Assembly: GCA_000611775.1 (NCBI GenBank)
Contig: KK106981.1
Span: 6,532,312 to 6,596,311 of the forward strand
Direction: 5' to 3'
DNA: 64,000 bases
Origin: Umbilicaria muhlenbergii
Taxonomy: Eukaryota > Ascomycota > Lecanoromycetes > Umbilicariales > Umbilicariaceae
Positions within the stretch are counted from its first letter, which is position 1, and each line of letters starts with the position of its first letter. A program made the translations under genes and the position numbers. Shown here piece by piece: positions 1,180 to 35,141 of this stretch. The notes beneath the pieces were generated by a model. It was given only the letters and a program-made list of their open reading frames with translations, was not told the DNA's origin and made no database searches.

Positions 1180-2560
1180 GATTTGAGCTGACCCTCTGAG
1201 ACTATATGAAAAATGAGAAGAAAGATCATGAAGATGAGATGAATGAGATCTTCATCAGTTTAGAGGAGTTCAAGAAGCAGATAAGAATCATGTTTGAGAT
1301 TATTAATCAAGAAAAAATCATGAAGTGTGAAATCTACAACATTGTGCAGAAAGAAGCTGTCATAATGTATGCAATCAACTTTCAGAGACACATCATGTAT
1401 ATGAATTGAGATGACACTGCTTTAACTGCACAGTATTACAAGAGTTTAAAGAACTTCATCAAAGATGAGATCTCCTGATCAGAGTGATCAAGTACCTTAG
1501 TCAAAATGATTGAAAAGTCAGTCATCATCAACAACCATGCATATGAAAGATCCATGAAGAAAAGCCAGAAGAATTACATATCACTGAAGGTGAACAAGCC
1601 TCATGAAAGCACTCAGTATAACAATCAACCTTATTACAGCCCTCAGTTAATGAAAATTGATGCAACCTTCTGAAGGAATCAATTCCAGAGAGGGATCAAG
1701 CAAATATCAAAGGGTATCAGAGTCAAAGGAAATTGTTATAACTGTGAGAAATCAGGACATTTCACATGCAACTGTTGAGTCTCAATGAAAGCCTTTTCAT
1801 CAAAGAAAAAGACATATGCTGCTGCGCTAAAAGAGTCAGCACTGAAGGAATCAGTTCAGCATAACATTATGTCTTGAACAGCTTGTTATGATGACAGCTG
1901 TGTAGTTCATCAGAGTGACAAAGATGACTCTGAATGATTTTCATGTCAATCAAAGAAGGCAAAAGAATATGCTGCAACCTCTCACTGAGACCTCATCACA
2001 GATGTGAAAAGACATCAAGTCAAGTGAGAGCAGTTCAGTCAAGAAGATAATTACATTAACAGTGATGATATGATACTCTCATTTAATGAGAAGGAAAACT
2101 TCATGAAAATAGCAGATTCTGAAGGCTCAAGAGAGCTTATCAAGAAAGATAATAATAAATGATTATCTAATCATGAAGAGAAGTGAATTCAAATGTATAC
2201 TGAAATACTTGATGCCCTCAGCAAGAAAGAGGAGTATGTGAAGCAAGTAAAAGAGATAAAGAAACAGATTCTTTACATCATCTGAGATGCATTTACACAA
2301 AGACAAGATCATGAAGAAATCAACTATTAAGATATAATCAAGAAGACATCACTGAAAGGTTCTCAGTTCATCATCAGAGGAGAATATGTTACCTCTGATG
2401 AAGCACACATCTCATGAGAACTCTGTATGAGAGTATGAGAACTCTGAAATGAATACTTCAAAAGAGATCTGAATAAGCATTCAACTCAGAAGGTGGATCT
2501 GAAAGACTTTAAGTATATAAAAAAGAACTTAAGGTTCTCCTCTTTTAGTTTAAAAAACTA
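1180..2560 (+). pseudogene. gag region of Gypsy A (fossil)
   Basis: This plus-strand region between the 5' LTR and the protease has gag-like charged, helical sequence. It contains a retroviral-type CCHC zinc knuckle at about 1735-1776 (C-x2-C-x4-H-x4-C spacing visible). In this family Gag packages the element RNA in virus-like particles. The region is broken in many places and makes no full product. Confidence 0.75.
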
Positions 2561-2599
2561 GGAGGCCCTCTGAGTCAGAGGCCTCTGAAGACACTTATT

Positions 2600-5500
2600 T
2601 CAAAGCCTTCAGACAGCATGCATCAGAGAGAGTTCATCACTGCAGCACAGGAAGACATGAGCAACTTTCATGTCTGAGTTAAAGTCAATGATCAGCCAGC
2701 CTGACTGCTAATAGACAGTGACTGTACAGGGAACTTCATGAACTCAGAATTTGCTGTGAAACATGTAATTTAAACACAGGTGAAGCAGAATCCCTTTAAA
2801 CTTCAAGGGTTCAATGAGACCTTTATGAAACATAATGATGAATGAGTAAACTGAGAGACAGTTCTCACGCTCATGCATTTAAGTCAACATTGAGAGAAGA
2901 TTCAATTCAACATAACAGAGCAATCAGGAAGTGATATAATTTTAAGAATATCATGACTCTGAGCAGTCAATCTGATGATTGATTGAGCTGAAAATGAGAT
3001 ATACTTCATTAAGGGTGATAATCTTAATAAGTTATATTCAGTCCTGAACTCACTTGAAGGTGTGAAGATCTTCACTATGTCAACAGAAGAGATGCATGAG
3101 GAACTGAAGAATTCTAATGTAAAGATACTGTGAAGCAGATGAGTTGAAGATGACTGAGACTCTGTTATCAAGTTATTTATCTTTAAAGAATATAAAGACT
3201 TCAAGGAATTATTTACAGTCATGAAGGATCAAGACGCCTTGCTGAAACATTAAGAATAAAATCATGAAATCAAGATCATGAAAGGTTGCACATTAATGAA
3301 GCAACTTATTTACTCATTGTCACCTCAAAAGTTAAACACTTTACGAGAATACTTAGAGGAGAACTTATGAAAAGGATTCATATGAGAATCATAATCTTCA
3401 GCTGAATATTCAATACTGTTTGTATCAAAGTCAGACAGTTCACTCAGATTGTGTGTCAACTACTGAGTGCTGAACAATATCATCATCAAAAACAGTTACC
3501 CTTTGCTGCTTATTTCAGAACTGCAGGATCAGTTTCAGGAAGCATAATGATTTATTAAGTTTAATATTTCAGGAGCCTTCAACCAGATTTGTATTAAAGA
3601 AGGAGATGAATGAAAGATCATGTTCTGAACAAGGTCAAGACTTTATGAGTACCTGATAATGCCTTTCAGATTAACAAACACGCCAGCAACATTTCAGGCT
3701 TTTATCAATAATGTACTATGAGAATACTTGAATCAGTTCATGATTGTGTACCTCAACAACATACTGATCTACTTCAAGACAAAGAAGCAGCATGTTCAGC
3801 ACATCTGCAAAGTTTTACAAGCACTTCAAGATGCAGGATTGCAGGTAAAGCCTGAGAAAAGTCTTTTTCATTTCAAGGAAGTACACTTCCTAGATTTCAT
3901 TGTAACATCAGAAGAGTTACAGATGAACTTTAAGAAGATATGATCTGTGATTGAATGATCAGTATTAAAGAACATCAAGGAAGTACAGTCCTTCCTTGAG
4001 TTCACAAACTTCTATAAGAAGTTTATTGAGAAGTATTCAAAAATCACATCACCTCTAACAGAGTTGATCAGAAAAGATCAGAAATTTGAGTGATCATCTG
4101 AAGCACAGAAAGCCTTTGATGAGTTGAAGAAGAGATTCACTTCTCAACTCATTCTCATGAGTTTCAACCCTGAGAAACTTATTACGCTTGAGACAGACGC
4201 GTCAGATGAAGCTATAAAAGCATGCATTAATCAGTCAGATGATAAGAGATGTCTACAGTCAGTAACTTTTTATTTAAGAAAGTTTTTGAGTGCTGAAATG
4301 AGCTACAAGATACATGACAAGGAGCTGTTAATTATTGTTGATGCATTTAAGCAATGACATGTGTATCTGAAAGGACTTAAACATGAGGTTCAGGTATATT
4401 CAGATCATAAGAATCTGTTGTATTTCATGATAATGAAAGTCTTAAATCAAAGACAAGTGTGTTGATCAGAAGAATTGTCACAGTACAATTTCAAAATTCA
4501 TTATCAAAAAGAATCAGAGAACATTAAAGTGAACACTCTCAGTCAATGAGCTGATTACTTACAAGATAAGTTGATCATCAGTCATGCTATCCTTCAGAAG
4601 AATGAGCAAGGGAACATGTTTTTCAACAGACAATTCAACCTCATCATACAAGTAAAGGATGACATTTTTAAAAATGAGATTTGAAAAGTGTTGAAGAATG
4701 ATAAGTTAGCACAACAGGTTCTTCAGAATATTAAGAATCATGAAAGTTTTGAAAAGGAGAAAAGCTTATTACTTTTTTAAAACTTGATCTATGTTCTCAT
4801 TAATCTTCAACAGAAGCTAATAGAGGAAAGTCATTTCAACAAGACACACAGTCATCAGGGAATCAACAAGATGATAAAATGACTCACAAGGATGTATTAC
4901 TTCTCACACATGAGGAAGAAAGTTGAAGAGATCATTTAAAAGTATGACATCTGCTGAAGAAGCAAAGCAGATTAACATAAGTTATACAGTCTACTCAAGT
5001 CATCAAGAACATCATCAAGATCATGAGCAAGCATCACATTAAACTTTGTGATTAAATTATCAAAGTTGAAAGAACCCCTGATGAAAGCAGTTTATGATTT
5101 GATATTAATTATCATCAACAGATTTATGAAGTATGAATACTTCATACCTTATAATGAAGCATCATCAGCAGAGGAACTCACATATATGTTTTTAAGAATT
5201 ATAACAGTCAATCATGAACTGCTGAAAGAGATAATCTTTGATAAAGATAAACTCTTCACCTTCAAGTTCTGAAAGTCATTAGTGAATCAGTTAGGGATTC
5301 ATCACAAGTTATTGATGTCATATCATCCTCAGACGGACGGACAGACTGAATGACTCAATCAGATTATGAAACAGTACCTATGATGTTATGTTAATTATCA
5401 GCAAATTAATTGAGTAGAACTCTTACTGATAGCTCAGTTAACATACAATTCAGCAGCAACAGAGACAACTGAAGTATCATCATTTTACATCAATTACAGT

Positions 5501-28034: not shown

Positions 28035-28625
28035 GTGGACAGAACTCTGATCATTAAAGGAAAAGCCTTTTAAAAGGGGACAGAACCTGATCATTGAGGA
28101 CAGACTTTAAATAAATGAATATGAAGGAATAAAATGTTGAATGAGGACTATGAGGGAGGGACAGAACCTGATCATTAAAGACAGACCTGAATATAAAGAG
28201 ATAAGCCTTCAAATGAAGGAACAGAATCAAACTGTTAAGACAAACTTTAAAACAGAGAAACAGACCTGAATACAAAGAAATAAATTAAAGAGAGAGGACA
28301 GAACCTGATCATTAAGAATAAACTCTTAAATGAAGAAACAAACCTGAATACAAAGAGATAAGTCTTCAAATAAAGGAAGAGACAGAACCTGATCATTAAA
28401 GATAAGCTCTTAAATGAAGGGACAGACCTGAATACAAAGAAATAAGTCTTCAAATAAAGAAAGGGACAGAACCTGATCATTAAGAATAAACCCTTAAATG
28501 AAGAAACAGACCTGAATATAAAGAGATAAATCTTCAAATAAAGAGAGGGGACAGAACCTGATCATTAAGAATAAGCCCTCAAATGAACAGACCTGAATAC
28601 AAACCTTTAAATGAGAGGAACAGTG
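28035..28625 (+). repeat. Minisatellite, unit about 84 bp, six to seven copies
   Basis: The units start GGACAGAACCTGATCATTAA and continue through ACAGACCTGAATACAAAGA to AAATAAAG. The inner copies (28297-28549) are the most regular at 82-85 bp; the outer copies are shorter or divergent. Open frames across it on the minus strand are by-products of the repeat (repeating LYLKTYLFVFRS) and not a gene. Confidence 0.9.
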
Positions 28626-28949
28626 CTCAATATAAATGACTTTAAGAGGAAGTCCTCCCTCATTGTAATTCATTTTCAGGCTCAAAATTAATTCTAGTAA
28701 TGAATTCATTCAACATTCAGCATCTTGTGCAGAGATGTGCTGAAAAAATGATATTAAACAATTTAACAACTATGCACAACCTCAGTAGTTAAGGGGCTGA
28801 ATTGAGCAAAGGACAGTGCCTATATAAATAAAAAGAACAATATGATTAAATGTAAAACTGCATCATCTGTCAGCAAAAACAATGAGACTGTATTAAAAAA
28901 TGTAAATCACTTTAATGTCAATTCTTCAACTTGAAATGAGATACTTCTT

Positions 28950-30772
28950 TCACACATAATCTTGCTCAAAAATATCATTAATAGCAGCTCTTTTCAATGT
29001 GCTTTTCCTCATGTCCTCAGCATTGCTACTCAGTTTCAAAGCAGATATTGAGAGTTCACAGTTAATATTAATATTCCCTTTTAGAATCAAGAGTATCACA
29101 TTTGTGCTGTCAATGACAACAGCTTCAAAGCATTCAGAAGGTGTCATAAATCATAAATTTGTGTTGAACAGAAATCACCTTTCACTTGTGTGCTTTTCAA
29201 TCACGCACTTGATCAGAGAGGGGTCAGAAAGATTAATTGATTTCATCTTCACTTAATTTTCCTCATCATGAAGGATGAACTTGATCAGAATTTTAATAAT
29301 GTCAGAGGATTTCTCAATGAGAACTTCTTTCAGTGAAAATTTCATCTTGTGAAATATTCACAGTTGATTTAAGAGACTCACCTGCAAGTCTTCATCCTCA
29401 GTTGAGTAATGACTTGATGAAATGATCAACAGCATCTTAAAACCTCACTCACTGAAGCTGTCATTTATTTATGATTTTTTAACATCCTCTTCATAACAGA
29501 GTTCTTAATTGAGTGAATGATTCTGCATCAGGATTGTATCCTCAGGCAACAAGTGTGTCTTTTAAGTGTTGTTACCTTAACCTGACTTCTGATGATCTGT
29601 GCATTCTGAGCTTGCTTCTTCTTGACTGATGTTTTATGTGCTTGTTCATTGATGACCTGTCTCTTGTTGAGGCCAGTCTGCTGCTTCAGCTGAGGAGTTT
29701 GACACAGTTGATTTTTCATGAAATGACAAGTGATTAAAAAAAGTCAGGTAAACTGACCTCCTCATAAAGAAAGATGTGATGTCATGACCTCAGCTCTTGT
29801 TTATACTGTGCACATCATTCAAGAAGAGATACTCCTGACTTTACTTATAAGTCAGATTGTATGAACATCTGCTTCTTCACTTGAGAGACTCATCAGGCTC
29901 AGTGATGATAAAAGAAAGCTTTGATCATTCAGACCTGATCTCAACAATGTTAAAGTTCATAGATCTCAATTCTCTGATCTCCTCAGATATGAACTTTAGC
30001 TGATCAGTCAAGGTGATAAATTGATATCATGTGAGCTTGTCTACCTTCTTTGACATCTTGATACCCTCAGTCATCTTCTTTTTCCCTTTGAGCTTTATCT
30101 TTGTGGATTCAGGGATCATCTCATGATGATGACGCATGATATAGAGGAACAATTGCTGATAACTTAAATTTACAGAATTGATAATGTTCCTTAACTTAAT
30201 GATGAAGATGAACTCAGCTTTTTAAATGATGCAGCTGTTCATCTGCTGATTGATCTCATTAAAGCTCTGCTTGAGTGCTGTGAACATTGTCCTCTGAAGA
30301 GGAATTATTTTCAGCACCTTAACACACCTGCTTCACACTTGAAGAGATTTGAAATCATCAAAAAACGTGAGGAGAGACGGGATAAGGTCATCAACAAATT
30401 ACAAGATGTTTCAAACTGTGTTGTGCTCTCACTCACTGAAGGCACTGAACAGTTCACTCTTCTGCATTTGATGATACAGGGATGTGAAGTTTAACACTGA
30501 TGTCTCAAGTGCTTTGCCCTTCAGCACTTTCACAATGATATAATCTACCTTTCACATCACCTGTCAGTCATTACTGAGCAAACTGAATCAGAACGCTCAG
30601 ATATATTTAAGGTAATAAAGAATTTCCTGATGAATGATTATGTTGATGTATTCATTGTGCAAGAATGATCAACTTACCTTTTTACATTGTGAGTTCATCA
30701 TCTTTTTAAGTATCCTGCTTCTTATCTTACTTCACAAGCCTGTGATGTCCTGAAGTGCATCAAAGGTCACTT
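28950..30772 (-). pseudogene. DUF3723-family gene, C-terminal two thirds (degraded)
   Basis: The minus strand from 30772 down to the stop at 28950 follows the DUF3723 family plan as I know it. It has TFDALQDI at the 30772 end, a spliced junction, a segment TMFTALKQSFNEINQQ near 30290, LFLYIMRHH near 30145, ITSFFMRRSVYL near 29760, then LMTPSECFEA-like and ILLILKGNININ segments near 29060-29150. DUF3723 proteins are large, multi-copy and of unknown function in filamentous ascomycetes. Many stops, mainly TGA, interrupt it. The N-terminal third is missing here and lies on the opposite strand at 31840-32691. The break at 30772 is the edge of an inserted TIR element (30780-31834). Confidence 0.7.
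30627..30677 (-). other. Intron in the DUF3723 pseudogene
   Basis: On the minus strand, GTAAGTTGATC opens and TTCATCAG closes a 51-bp interval. Coding similarity resumes on both sides (CKK before, EILYYLKYI after). The size and consensus suit a filamentous ascomycete intron. Confidence 0.6.
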
Positions 30773-30859
30773 GATACATCCACAACTTAACAGCCCGCTC
30801 AAAAATAAGATTTTAGTTAATAGTACTTTATGCGCTCAGAGCACTCTCTGAGCAGTAAA
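30773..30859 (+). repeat. Outer inverted repeat, left arm (87 bp)
   Basis: Pairs with 33612-33698 in inverted orientation. The core GCTCAAAAATAAGATTTTAG and the following GCGCTCAGAGCACTCTCTGA are identical; the differences near the end are transitions. Confidence 0.85.
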
Positions 30860-30984
30860 TGAGCTTATACAAATCTTACACTTTAAATAACTATTATACC
30901 TTCATGAATAATAAAAAACTTTTTATTGAAAAGTTTTAGATCTCTTTATTCTGTACACTTTACAAACTAAAGATTTCTTCATAA

Positions 30985-31420
30985 GTTTTAATTTGCAATA
31001 GTTATGAATTAAAAAACTTTTAACTAATTATAAATATATTAGCATATTGAATAACTATTGCGCTTTTATACTTATAATATAACTTTCAGTTTATAAGTTG
31101 TAGAGAATAAGCTGTTTAAGAGTTTTCTTATACAAAGTTTCTTTTTATGTGTTGTTGTTGTTGAGTTATTCAAAAAGTCATTAAAAGTCTGTTTATTAAT
31201 GTTGTAATTTTCGTCACTGAAAGTTTGAAATCAATGTAACTTTTAACAACAACAGTTATAAAAAAACTTTAAGTTATAAAACTGTTAAATAGCTTCTTCT
31301 CTACAACTTATAAACTAAAAGTTATATCATAAGTATAAAAGCGCAATAGTTATTCAATATGCTAATATATTTATAATTAATTAAAAGTTTTTTAATTCAT
31401 AACTATTGAATACTGTTCTT
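30985..31420. repeat. Large palindrome within left copy of X
   Basis: AATAGTTATGAATTAAAAAACTTTTAA at the left is answered by its reverse complement at 31379-31410. The match runs inward through ATATATTAGCATATTGAATAACTATTGCGC and its mirror to a central loop near 31205. Its core (31048-31356) recurs at 33231-33540; the outer shells are private to this copy. Confidence 0.8.
31048..31356. repeat. Palindromic core M, left copy (309 bp)
   Basis: Ends TGAATAACTATTGCGCTTT and its reverse complement. About 97% identical by eye to 33231-33540 and in the same orientation, although the surrounding X copies are inverted to one another. It may be a palindromic MITE, or the loop of the palindrome may have flipped. 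Confidence 0.75.
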
Positions 31421-31839
31421 TATAATTTATGCATTGAAAGTTTCTTCATATCTGTTGAGGTGCAAAAGTTATTAAAGTGTGTAAATTTTTAAGTGGTGAA
31501 AATCTTGAAGTTCTTTAAATATTCAGAACTCAACACTTATACAGTGCTTTCAGACTCAACAAATCATGATTTTTTATTGCAGAAAAGTGAATTTTAGCAA
31601 AAGTTTACTTATTATAAATTTTACTGTTATTATAAAACTGTGTAAATACTTGTTTAAACAATTGTTTTAATAACTGTTTTTTTATCACAAAATTTTAATG
31701 TTCCGCTCAAGATTTAAGGTTGAGCTCAAAGAGCTCAAAGGATACTAAGAGCGGCTGTTAGCTGAGACATGAGATCAGAAGCTCAGAGCGCTCAAAGTGC
31801 TAAAAATTAACTCAGAGCTAACTTGCTAAATTGCTGATG
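31421..31839 (+). repeat. Inner inverted repeat, left arm (about 420 bp)
   Basis: Pairs with 32692-33120. It includes AAGAGCGGCTGTTAGCTGA and CTCAGAGCGCTCAAAGTGC, matched by their reverse complements near 32750-32790. Confidence 0.88.
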
Positions 31840-32691
31840 AGGGCTCTTGAAGTGACATTCATAATTGATGCACATTGAGTGTCATTCATACTTGATGCAC
31901 ATTCAGTTAATCACAGGACAGTCTTGTTCTGAATTAATAATAACTGTTTCTCAGCCTCCTCACTCAAGCAGCAATTCACATTTCATTGCAAGATGAATGA
32001 TATGAGTGATGCTGCTCATTCACTGAAACCCTCACTATGTGACAGATTCAGGTAGAGCGTCAAGAGGTGACACTTGAAGTGAAGAGGCGTATCAAGTTCA
32101 AAGAGACTGCATGCATCAGGCTTGAGTGTCTGAATTTTCACAGCAATGAACCTCAGGAGAATGTGAAGAGGTTAAAATTATGCTTTCAACATGAGAGGTG
32201 TTATCAGCTTAAGCATCAGTATCATGTGCCTGCTGTCATTGACTCACAACACTTGAATCTTGCTGTTTAATCTTTCAACACCTTTCATGAAGTGTTGCTG
32301 AGCAACATGCAAGATTAATGACCTGAATTGCATTTTTCATTCAGTGTCTGACTTCATTGTCTACAGGGTTGTGATCAACTTTAAGCAAGCTGAGAGTTTC
32401 TTTCACCTGAGGACAGGTGATGAATGATGAATCTTTACTTGAACAGTACAGTGATCTGATCTTCTCATCATCATCACTTTCACTGACATCAGTGTCAGAT
32501 TTAAATGAAAAATTAAAGAGATCTCTTGTTGAAGCTTTCTTCAATGAGGATCAACCTTCTGCTGAGTGAGTTTATCACAAAATCTGTCAGTATGACCTGC
32601 AAGGGGATTCAGTCACTGAGGGTGATTGATGAGCATGTTTGATCAAAAACAAACAAGGTGAGCTGAGGAAACTTCTTCATCATGACAAATA
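31840..32691 (+). pseudogene. DUF3723-family gene, N-terminal third, inverted relative to the rest
   Basis: A plus-strand segment lies between the two X copies. A 67-residue open piece at 32067-32270 reads like the DUF3723 N-terminus (RIKFKETACIRLECLNF, then HVPAVIDSQHLNLAV). Further on come a WWTVDLYL-like stretch near 32420-32440 with both tryptophan codons lost, LKRSLVEAFFNEDQPS-like sequence near 32510-32560, and KQGELRKLLHHDKYIS ending at 32691. The protein should continue with TFDALQDI, which is found at 30772 on the minus strand. A likely start is ATG 31992, possibly followed by a small intron near 32053. Several stops interrupt it. Confidence 0.68.
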
Positions 32692-33120
32692 CATCAGCAA
32701 TTTAGCAAGTTAACTCTGAGTTAATTTTTAACACTTTGAGCGCTCTGAGCTTCTGATCTCATGTTTCAGCTAACAGCCGCTCTTAGCACCTGCTGAGCAC
32801 TTTGAGCTCAACCTTAAATCTTGAGCAGAACATCAAAATTTTGTGATAAAAAAACAGTTATTAAAACAATTGTTTAAACAAGTACACACACAGTGTTATA
32901 ATAACAGTAAAACTTATAATAAGTAAACTTTTGCTAAAATTCACTTTTCTGCAATAAAAAATCATGATTTGTTGAGTCTGAAAGCACTGTATAAGTGTTG
33001 AGTTCTGAATATTTAAAGAACTTCAAGATTTTCATCACTTAAAAATTTACACACTTTAATAACTTTTGCAACTCAACAGATATGAAGAAACTTTCAATGC
33101 ATAAATTATAAAAAACAGTA
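32692..33120 (-). repeat. Inner inverted repeat, right arm
   Basis: Reverse complement of 31421-31839 with small gaps and transitions. It begins CATCAGCAATTTAGCAAG directly at the break in the DUF3723 coding sequence. Confidence 0.88.
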
Positions 33121-33694
33121 TTATCTATTAATGTTAAATTAAAAGTTTCTTCATAACTGCTGTTGTTGTTAAGTTATATTTAATTCAAGTTTTCAATAGC
33201 GAAAAATCTTTCAAAAAAAGTCACATACTTTGAATAACTATTGCGCTTTTATACTTATAATATAACTTTCAGGTTATAAGTTGTAGAGAATAAGCTGTTT
33301 AAGAGTTTTCTGATACAAAGTTTCTTTTTATGTGTTGTTGGTGTTGAGTTATTCAAAAAGTCATTAAAAGTCGGTTTATTAATGTTGTGATTTTCATCAC
33401 TGAAAGTTTAAAATCAATGTAACTTTTTAACAACAACAGTTATAAAAAAACTTTAAGTTATAGAACTGGTTAATAGCTTCTTCTCTACAACTTATAAACT
33501 AAAAGTTATATCATAAGTATAAAAGCGCAATAGTTAATCAAAGTATGTGACTTTTTTTGAAAGATCTTTCACTATTGAAAACTTGAATTAAAGATAACTT
33601 AACAACAACAATTTACTGCTCAGAGAGTGCTCTGAGCGCATAAAGTACTATTAACTAAAATCTTATTTTTGAGTGAGCTGCCAAGTTGCAGATG
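32697..33694 (+). mobile_element. TIR element X, right copy (about 1.0 kb, non-autonomous)
   Basis: Inverted relative to the left copy; it shares the 87-bp outer and about 420-bp inner blocks and the palindromic core. Between those blocks its sequence differs from the left copy (private palindrome shells at 33140-33230 and 33541-33605). The two are therefore related but distinct versions. The right end (CTGCCAAGTTGC near 33690) is followed by non-DUF3723 sequence. A possible duplication CCTCATCA (minus of 31835-31842) / CCTCTTCA (33695-33702) has one mismatch and is weak. Confidence 0.58.
33231..33540. repeat. Palindromic core M, right copy (310 bp)
   Basis: Same as 31048-31356 in direct orientation, with roughly ten differences. 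It is flanked by mirror-image AAAGTATGTGACTTTTTTTGAAAG shells found only in this copy. Confidence 0.75.
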
Positions 33695-33698
33695 CCTC
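33612..33698 (-). repeat. Outer inverted repeat, right arm (87 bp)
   Basis: Reverse complement of 30773-30859. It ends the symmetrical 2.9-kb structure. Confidence 0.85.
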
Positions 33699-33959
33699 TT
33701 CATTCTTTAAATAAAAAGATGAAAACAACATTCTTTCACTTTTCTGTGACTTCTGTGCTTATGACTTAAAAAAGTGCTCTCAACATGTCATGTAGTCTTT
33801 AATTCTCACAATTGTTTTTATTATCAGCCTTTCATATTCTATTCCTCAGAGCCAGAGCAATTATCATAAGTGAAAGCACAAATGAATTAAAATTTTAATG
33901 TCACTCAATTAAGCTGCCTGAACAAGAAAGGACCTCATCAATTTTTTATAAATAATTTA

Positions 33960-35141
33960 TCATCATTCAATGATATTAAGACCTCACCTGCAGATGATTT
34001 TCATCATGCTTTAATCTTCAAGAAGGATGTTGCTGACAAATTGCAGAGAAAATGAAAACATTTTATCATAAACAATGCACATCAAGCTGCTGAATTTAAG
34101 TTTCAGAAGCCTACAACCTCTGCTTCAAGCAGTGCTCAGTTAAATTTTCAGATCAATACAGCTCCTGCAAATGAATTGCTCATCATATCTTTTCTTAATG
34201 ACTCTCATGATGCATCTGCTTCATTGAGGCCTGAAGTTCAGCCAGATGCATCACCTCTGAGAGTAAAAGATGAATCCTCATGAGAGACTTATGACAAATA
34301 TTATCAGCTTGAGCTGAGTGAGCTTGTCACTGTGATCAAGAGAAGATGTTCAGTCTTTAAACTGATGATGATTAAGAAGCTCTTGAGTTTAAGTGCTGAT
34401 GTCACACTTTCTGTGCTTCATCAGATACAAGGCAGTTGTTTTGTGAACTGTGTTGAGATATTTCACTTCAAAAATGCCTTGCATGTAATTTCAGAGTACA
34501 TGATGATGTTTCTTCTTCAGATTATAACAGCACCTCAGTATCTGAATGAGAATTCAATCATGATAATCATTGATCAAGTGAACTTTCCTCACTGTTGAAA
34601 AATGAGGCATCAGCACTGAAGAATGCAGGTTCTTCACAGGATTAAATTTCTTAAATCTTGTAACATGATTCATGATATCATCACCTGCTCAAGCATTCTT
34701 GTGAGTCAGCAGGGGGCTGTCAAGATTAATATGCAGCATGAACATCTTCATGAAGTCTCATTAACTCAAGATCACAGCAAATTTGAAATGCTGCAGAATC
34801 ACATCACTGAAAGATAAGCAGAATCATTCAGACATGCAGGCTTTAAAGAACATCATGATGCAATTAATAAAGAAATGCAGCAGAGGTAATAAACTTGTCA
34901 ATGCAAGTGATCTGCCTCACTGATCTCTTACTGTTGTTAATTTTCTTTCAGATACTACGTCTGCTTCTGCTCAGGAGTTGACACTGATGAGTTAAAAGTT
35001 TCTTCTGATGATGACATCTTTAACCTTCAAAGCATGTGTTCCTCAAGAATGAGTGACAGAAAGAAGACCTTCTCTTGTTAATATCACTCACTCAACTTTC
35101 CTCACGCAGGTTTTATAAAGATGGGTGATGATTTGTCTTAA
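33960..35141 (+). pseudogene. Degraded protein-kinase-like gene
   Basis: One frame runs from about 33960 through 34885 and continues after an intron to a TAA at 35139. The 34296-34830 part follows the protein kinase fold as kept in a multi-copy ascomycete family. It has an N-lobe (LSELVTVIKRR, near 34312-34350), FVNCVEIFHFKNALHVISEYM (34440-34505), and a C-lobe with GIKFLE-like and MIHDIITCSSILV segments (34638-34710), followed by GAVKI. The HRD and DFG motifs are not evident (HDI and KINMQ in their places), which may reflect an ancestral pseudokinase as well as decay. An upstream region rich in Ser/Ala (34100-34260) may be a linker. In-frame TGA stops show it is dead. It lies 270 bp right of the X inverted structure. 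Confidence 0.5.
34886..34951 (+). other. Intron in the kinase-like pseudogene
   Basis: GTAATA at 34886 and TTTTCTTTCAG ending at 34951 define a 66-bp intron with a pyrimidine-rich 3' end. Coding-like sequence flanks both sides (AINKEMQQR before, YYVCFCSGVDTDEL after). Confidence 0.55.

Follow-up and report, generated by a model that had tools for sequence, protein, structure and literature searches.

How did a single gene come to lie in two halves on opposite strands, one of them enclosed by a pair of inverted repeats? This question is raised by a DUF3723 locus of Umbilicaria muhlenbergii in the 64,000-nt stretch of DNA analyzed here, hereafter the window (assembly GCA_000611775.1, contig KK106981.1, termed C1; positions 6,532,312-6,596,311, so that a window position is the genome position minus 6532311). 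The genome comprises 34.8 Mb in 7 contigs, and both DUF3723 and DUF3435 are fungal families. The repeats are two opposed copies of a mobile element, termed X. The best explanation, in which we have considerable confidence, is that two X copies inserted at this locus and that homologous recombination inverted the 852 bp between them. Assembly error aside, the locus is a real and exactly delimited transposon-bounded microinversion of a pseudogene, ordinary in kind.

Profile searches using PF12520 revealed the C-terminal half of the gene on the minus strand (C1:6562266-6563084, profile positions 148-397; C1:6562047-6562229, positions 447-507) and the N-terminal half on the plus strand (C1:6564510-6564761, positions 1-84; C1:6564806-6565015, positions 82-151), corresponding to matches within 29736-30773 and 32199-32704 of the window, respectively. 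All four pieces exceed the curated cut-off, and all four contain stops. Together with the repeat edges, these matches confirm a preliminary description of this DNA, in which the N half occupied 31840-32691 of the plus strand, bounded directly by two inverted X copies, with the C half on the minus strand. The last N-half match extends 13 bases into the right X; hence the N half proper stops a few profile positions before 151, adjoining position 148. The two halves thus align to adjacent parts of DUF3723, in agreement with the alignment that the preliminary description had called for. Its edges required some correction. The C half ends at 30776, not at 30772. N-terminal coding does stop beside the right X, but the final "IS" of the HDKYIS read there is encoded by the terminal bases of X itself. 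Similarly, the C half does resume beside the left X, not with TFDALQDI but within a Tyr codon, as YQVTFDALQDI (frame read by eye). Internal stops are present in all 19 PF12520 matches listed for the genome, although introns, disregarded by the search, could add some of them. The window locus is a stop-ridden pseudogene.

The 852-bp segment with the N half is also found at three other places, L011 and L013 on contig C4 and L012 on C3, all of which are uninverted and devoid of X at either site. The paralogous DNA shares 85-92% identity with the window. Alignment against L012 showed that its positions 1-2245 match window 28532-30776, positions 2244-3094 match 32691-31841 in reverse, and positions 3094-4198 match 33695-34799, with breakpoints exactly at the X ends. 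L011 and L013 have the same order at both junctions, and the alignments to L012 and L013 overlap by 2 bp at the junction of the C half with the segment (J1). As L012 and L013 are 100% identical over 3963 bp, they provide two independent witnesses of the uninverted order, not three. Compared to L012, the identity is 89.3% for the left flank, 88.7% for the C half, 91.4% for the N-half segment and 92.4% for the right flank, with 121/8, 114/4, 68/5 and 76/8 transitions/transversions, respectively; compared to L011, it is 86.2% for the C half and 89.4% for the N segment. Against both paralogues, these four host segments each differ by 68-139 transitions and 2-9 transversions. The colinear, contiguous paralogues and the similar divergence indicate that both halves belong to one locus; neither overlapping or distant alignment nor clearly unequal divergence was found. 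The two remaining DUF3723 regions, L014 and L015 on C2, have no stretch longer than 100 bp in common with the window at 1e-10. The uninverted order is thus known from paralogues in one genome, not from the same locus in another strain. Relative to these X-free paralogues, the order in the window is the derived one, and they bear out the earlier proposal of an opposed X pair with inversion of the DNA between.

The two X copies share inverted repeats of 442 nt at 95% identity (31398-31839 and 32692-33133, 852 nt apart) and outer repeats of 84 nt at 93% (30777-30860 and 33611-33694). A genome search with the left X gave 114 matched stretches, with 40 of 308 candidates scored. From base 1 to base 1062 or 1063, it is matched by the window copy and 17 others at ≥90% identity, and by one more at 85%, which fixes the ends of X exactly. 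In their length (852-1389 bp for two-ended copies), inverted termini starting CATC, palindromic middle, lack of a stop-to-stop frame of 80 amino acids in the two window copies, and abundance of ends (277 places for a 25-base pattern with ≤2 mismatches and 268 for a 33-base pattern with ≤1 mismatch, compared to none for each pattern read backwards), X elements resemble miniature inverted-repeat transposable elements and foldback elements as usually defined; they differ in their 2-bp duplications of free sequence. Of 41 rows, 32 distinct two-ended copies were retained after removal of three rows of the window's own two elements, three E1-E1 rows (E1 and E2 being the two ends of X) and three repeats of the same copies. 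Matching 2-bp flanks were found in 17 of the 32, a count reached in none of 5000 shuffles (mean 4.69); at 3 bp only one copy matched and at 8 bp none. The duplicated dinucleotides comprise TA, CA, AA, CG, AT, TT and TG. Altogether, X has the sequence hallmarks of a DNA transposon with terminal inverted repeats and a fixed 2-bp target duplication, non-autonomous and about 1 kb long. Tc1/mariner elements duplicate TA; with TA in only 5 of the 17 matching duplications, assignment of X to that group was rejected.

These 2-bp duplications can be followed at both junctions. At J1, the paralogue reads CTTGATA TCTGTC, and the window has GATA followed by the left X, while the flipped segment, read back on the original strand, starts TATTTGTC. 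TA is therefore duplicated at J1, inside the Tyr codon (frame read by eye). At the other junction (J2), the paralogues read GAGCCCCTCTTC. In the window, the flipped segment contributes GAGCCCT and the right flank CCTCTTC, which would correspond to a duplicated CC followed by one C-to-T change. The own flanks of both window copies disagree, being TA/AG for the left X and TA/CC for the right X; once exchanged between the two, they read TA/TA at J1 and CT/CC at J2. The preliminary description had instead proposed an 8-bp target duplication, formed by ATACATCA and ATGTATCA, which was discarded given the 2-bp duplications of the X family. These 8-mers are alike because X starts with CATC and adjoins TA, so that their likeness consists of TA plus the terminal bases of X. 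The features are listed in Table 1.

Table 1. Features of the split DUF3723 locus in window coordinates (classes P and R are our own labels)
Feature	Position	Strand	Evidence
DUF3723 pseudogene, C-terminal half, lying outside the X pair and not moved	29736..30776	-	PF12520 148-397 and 447-507; 88.7% to L012 1205-2245, colinear
TA, outer copy of the J1 target duplication	30775..30776	+	Paralogue CTTGATA TCTGTC versus window GATA then X
Left X (1063 bp, structural class P), with E1 outward and E2 inward	30777..31839	+	17 other copies from base 1 to 1062/1063 at ≥90%; shorter copies match 1-632 at 95-98%
852-bp segment in inverted orientation, carrying the N-terminal half of the pseudogene	31840..32691	+	Three other places match 2-852 at 89-91%, reversed between colinear flanks
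AG (CT on the other strand), putative inner copy of the J2 target dinucleotide	31840..31841	+	Outer copy CC at 33695-33696, paralogue CC; a C/T transition at one of the two bases
Inner TA of the J1 target duplication, adjoining the right X after the flip	32690..32691	+	Junction comparison with the paralogue
Right X, E2 inner, E1 outer, 1003 bp, structural class R	32692..33694	-	97% to C2:4740273-4741272 over full length; T at arm column 155 as in L050-L053
Right flank, which in the paralogues directly adjoins the opposite edge of the segment	33695..34799	+	92.4% to L012 3094-4198

Several observations weigh against the proposed inversion by recombination. The exchanged dinucleotides at J2 share only one base, so that one C/T change has to be assumed, and a 2-bp match such as TA/TA would arise by chance at odds of about 15% (the shuffle mean of 4.69 in 32). 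Moreover, 15 of the 32 other X copies likewise have no matching 2-bp flank, which makes disagreeing own flanks alone weak evidence. An unflipped allele bearing X was not seen. Furthermore, the differences in the distal arm are spread over all X classes, with C/T sites recurring in all of them. These differences were assessed by comparing the 442-nt shared arm with 32 other elements and its last 250 nt with 38 others, leaving out L063 (one end only found), L038 (no two-ended copy) and, from the 250-nt comparison, L056. At arm column 155, the right X has T, as do L050-L053 (four of the five class-R elements compared), and the left X and the other 28 rows have G, six of the latter being class-P rows in which the DNA aligned at that column lies outside the E2 arm. 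Near the core, the right X resembles class R, although one full-length element (L022) shows the pattern in part. In the two columns closest to the E2 end, TT is present in the right X and in 6 of 12 class-P, 1 of 6 class-R and 4 of 19 full-length elements, whereas CC is present in the left X and in 2 of 6 elements of class R and 2 of 12 of class P. This pattern leans towards exchange between X copies, but the C/T sites concerned recur in all classes. Accordingly, of the history given in the preliminary description, two insertions followed by homologous recombination, the opposed X copies and the inversion stand; recombination is the best inference, the distal-arm differences, which do not follow class cleanly, having revealed no exchange point.

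How far do other explanations account for the locus? The several DUF3723 copies of the genome might have supplied the two halves separately, to be joined by chance; as the segment and both flanks are contiguous in three paralogues, joined to the base and similarly diverged, this idea was rejected and has almost no probability left. In assemblies, false flips classically arise where a short unique segment is enclosed by opposed repeats, and the 1-kb X copies provide just this setting. The target duplications cannot separate an assembly error from a true inversion, since an artificial flip exchanges the flanks as well. Yet the whole structure measures only 2.9 kb, and a genome in 7 contigs suggests long reads, so we consider an error very improbable.

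Alternative transposition proceeds through cooperating ends of nearby or sister copies. Inversions of the alternative transposition type are reported, for example, at maize p1/p2 (PMC8225341); the X locus is similar in being inverted at transposon ends, but differs in that its two X copies belong to different classes. A single X might likewise have generated both its second copy and the inversion in one event of aberrant or replicative intramolecular transposition; by our reasoning, this would leave the same exchanged duplications. However, copies of such an origin would have been identical at first, and those of the window differ in length (1063 versus 1003 bp), in the palindromic middle and in the base at arm column 155, which is G in the left copy but, in the right copy, the T of four of the five class-R elements compared. 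The different structural classes favor two separate insertions plus homologous recombination over one self-copying element, which we regard as improbable, if slightly less so than an assembly error. A composite transposon, in which X-segment-X moved as a unit, was rejected; the segment is in its native place, merely flipped.

Under the favored history of two insertions and recombination, a long repeated segment holding the DUF3723 gene would first have been duplicated in the genome, and then mutated by a RIP-like (repeat-induced point mutation) C-to-T process with CpG preference. Two separate X members would have inserted 852 bp apart in opposite orientation in the window's copy, one at TA inside the Tyr codon of the pseudogene and the other upstream at CC. 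Homologous recombination between them would have flipped the intervening DNA, putting the N-terminal half on the other strand and splitting both 2-bp duplications between the two X copies. The CpG observed/expected ratio is 0.00-0.11 in the four host segments compared to 0.45 and 0.36 in the two X copies, indicating that X came in after most of the mutation, or escaped it. Probably X arrived late and the gene was already dead when split; the flip has no evident function.

The closest precedent, by analogy, is provided by the Galileo inversions of Drosophila. The study of inversion 2z3 in Drosophila buzzatii uses opposed elements, exchanged duplications and chimeric elements as signs (PMC2775673). 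Both cases have two opposed copies of one DNA transposon with long inverted repeats at the breakpoints, and single target sequences in the uninverted order. The target duplications are exchanged in Galileo 2z3, and at the X locus fully at one site and by half at the other. The X locus differs in spanning 852 bp within a pseudogene of a fungus, with 2-bp duplications compared to 7 bp for Galileo; in addition, chimeric copies are not demonstrated, and the uninverted order comes from paralogues, not from the same locus of another strain. DUF3723 genes have also been linked with Starship elements (PMC10128009), the PF12520 domain being common to those genes and the window locus. DUF3435, the Starship captain, has no match in the 64-kb window; on C1, the closest match listed stops about 118 kb short of the first base of the window. 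Starship edges were not sought for this negative, and such elements can exceed the window in size.

This kind of rearrangement is thus already known from fruit flies, and the X locus is, by that comparison, a clean local example. It offers a base-exact record of a transposon-mediated microinversion in a fungus, in which the ancestral order is kept in same-genome paralogues, so that the steps can be read without an outgroup. It illustrates that a gene can be scrambled by a short mobile element with nothing being deleted, and may serve as a template for finding more cases, namely X copies with disagreeing 2-bp flanks that match those of a partner. The X family, with its opposed ends and palindromic middle, could even be a recurrent engine of small inversions, such that the DUF3723 segment flips both ways, both orders occur among nuclei or strains, and many X copies without their own 2-bp duplication are other recombinants; we think this rather unlikely. 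A narrow search of titles and abstract openings found no paper on the X family or this inversion, which is no proof of absence.

The only transposase family searched for as a partner of X, PF13359 (PIF-Harbinger/ISL2EU, DDE_Tnp_4), has 11 matches in the genome, none of them close to an X end among the 100 of 277 and 100 of 268 ends listed: five, on C1 and C2, all lie ≥8 kb from these ends, which include none on C4, C5 or C7, home of the other six matches. The search for an autonomous partner also led to one 4.5-kb span with facing X ends (C1:2022123-2026594; L057 64-4535), which proved to be a further opposed X pair enclosing 2607 bp; the 4601 bases read contain no stop-to-stop frame ≥100 amino acids. 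This pair is flanked by TG/TG and CA/CA, mutual reverse complements that fit the flipped and unflipped state alike, and some of the DNA within it is 75% similar to window 3880-5206.

The X classes comprise E1-core-E2 (~1120 bp), E1 arm-core-reversed E1 arm-E2 tip, E1 tip-reversed E2 arm-core-E2 arm, and E2-E2 palindromes (1388 and 1389 bp). They look like recombinants of each other with varying switch points (including L055 and L056), which suggests repeated exchange via the palindromic middle. Several X copies are clustered at C4:1.437-1.455 Mb (L020, L021 and L034), where those at L020 2855 and L021 1500 have the same 12-nt left flank, as if duplicated by recombination.

The window as a whole has a CpG observed/expected ratio of 0.09 and only two stop-to-stop frames ≥130 amino acids, the longest of 159, and is by this composition heavily mutated, RIP-like DNA. 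C4:1.311-1.335 Mb is matched piecewise, in reverse orientation, by window ~22.8-44.5 kb (44.5 kb being the end of the searched stretch), which places the DUF3723 copy inside a duplicated segment of ~20 kb or more. The first 3963 bp of C3 are 100% identical to an internal part of C4 (L012 1-3963, L013 3175-7137), which is either a recent duplication or a contig-end artefact. L013 2068-3179 is an X insertion at the position equivalent to window 34799/34800, where the counterpart of window 34561-34798 is lost together with 13 nt of X tip; at the same position, L012 (from 4199 on) has only ~55 nt of X end, as seen by eye. To the left of the C half, window 28181-28603 is a tandem array of 84-bp units (scored also as 168-bp units).
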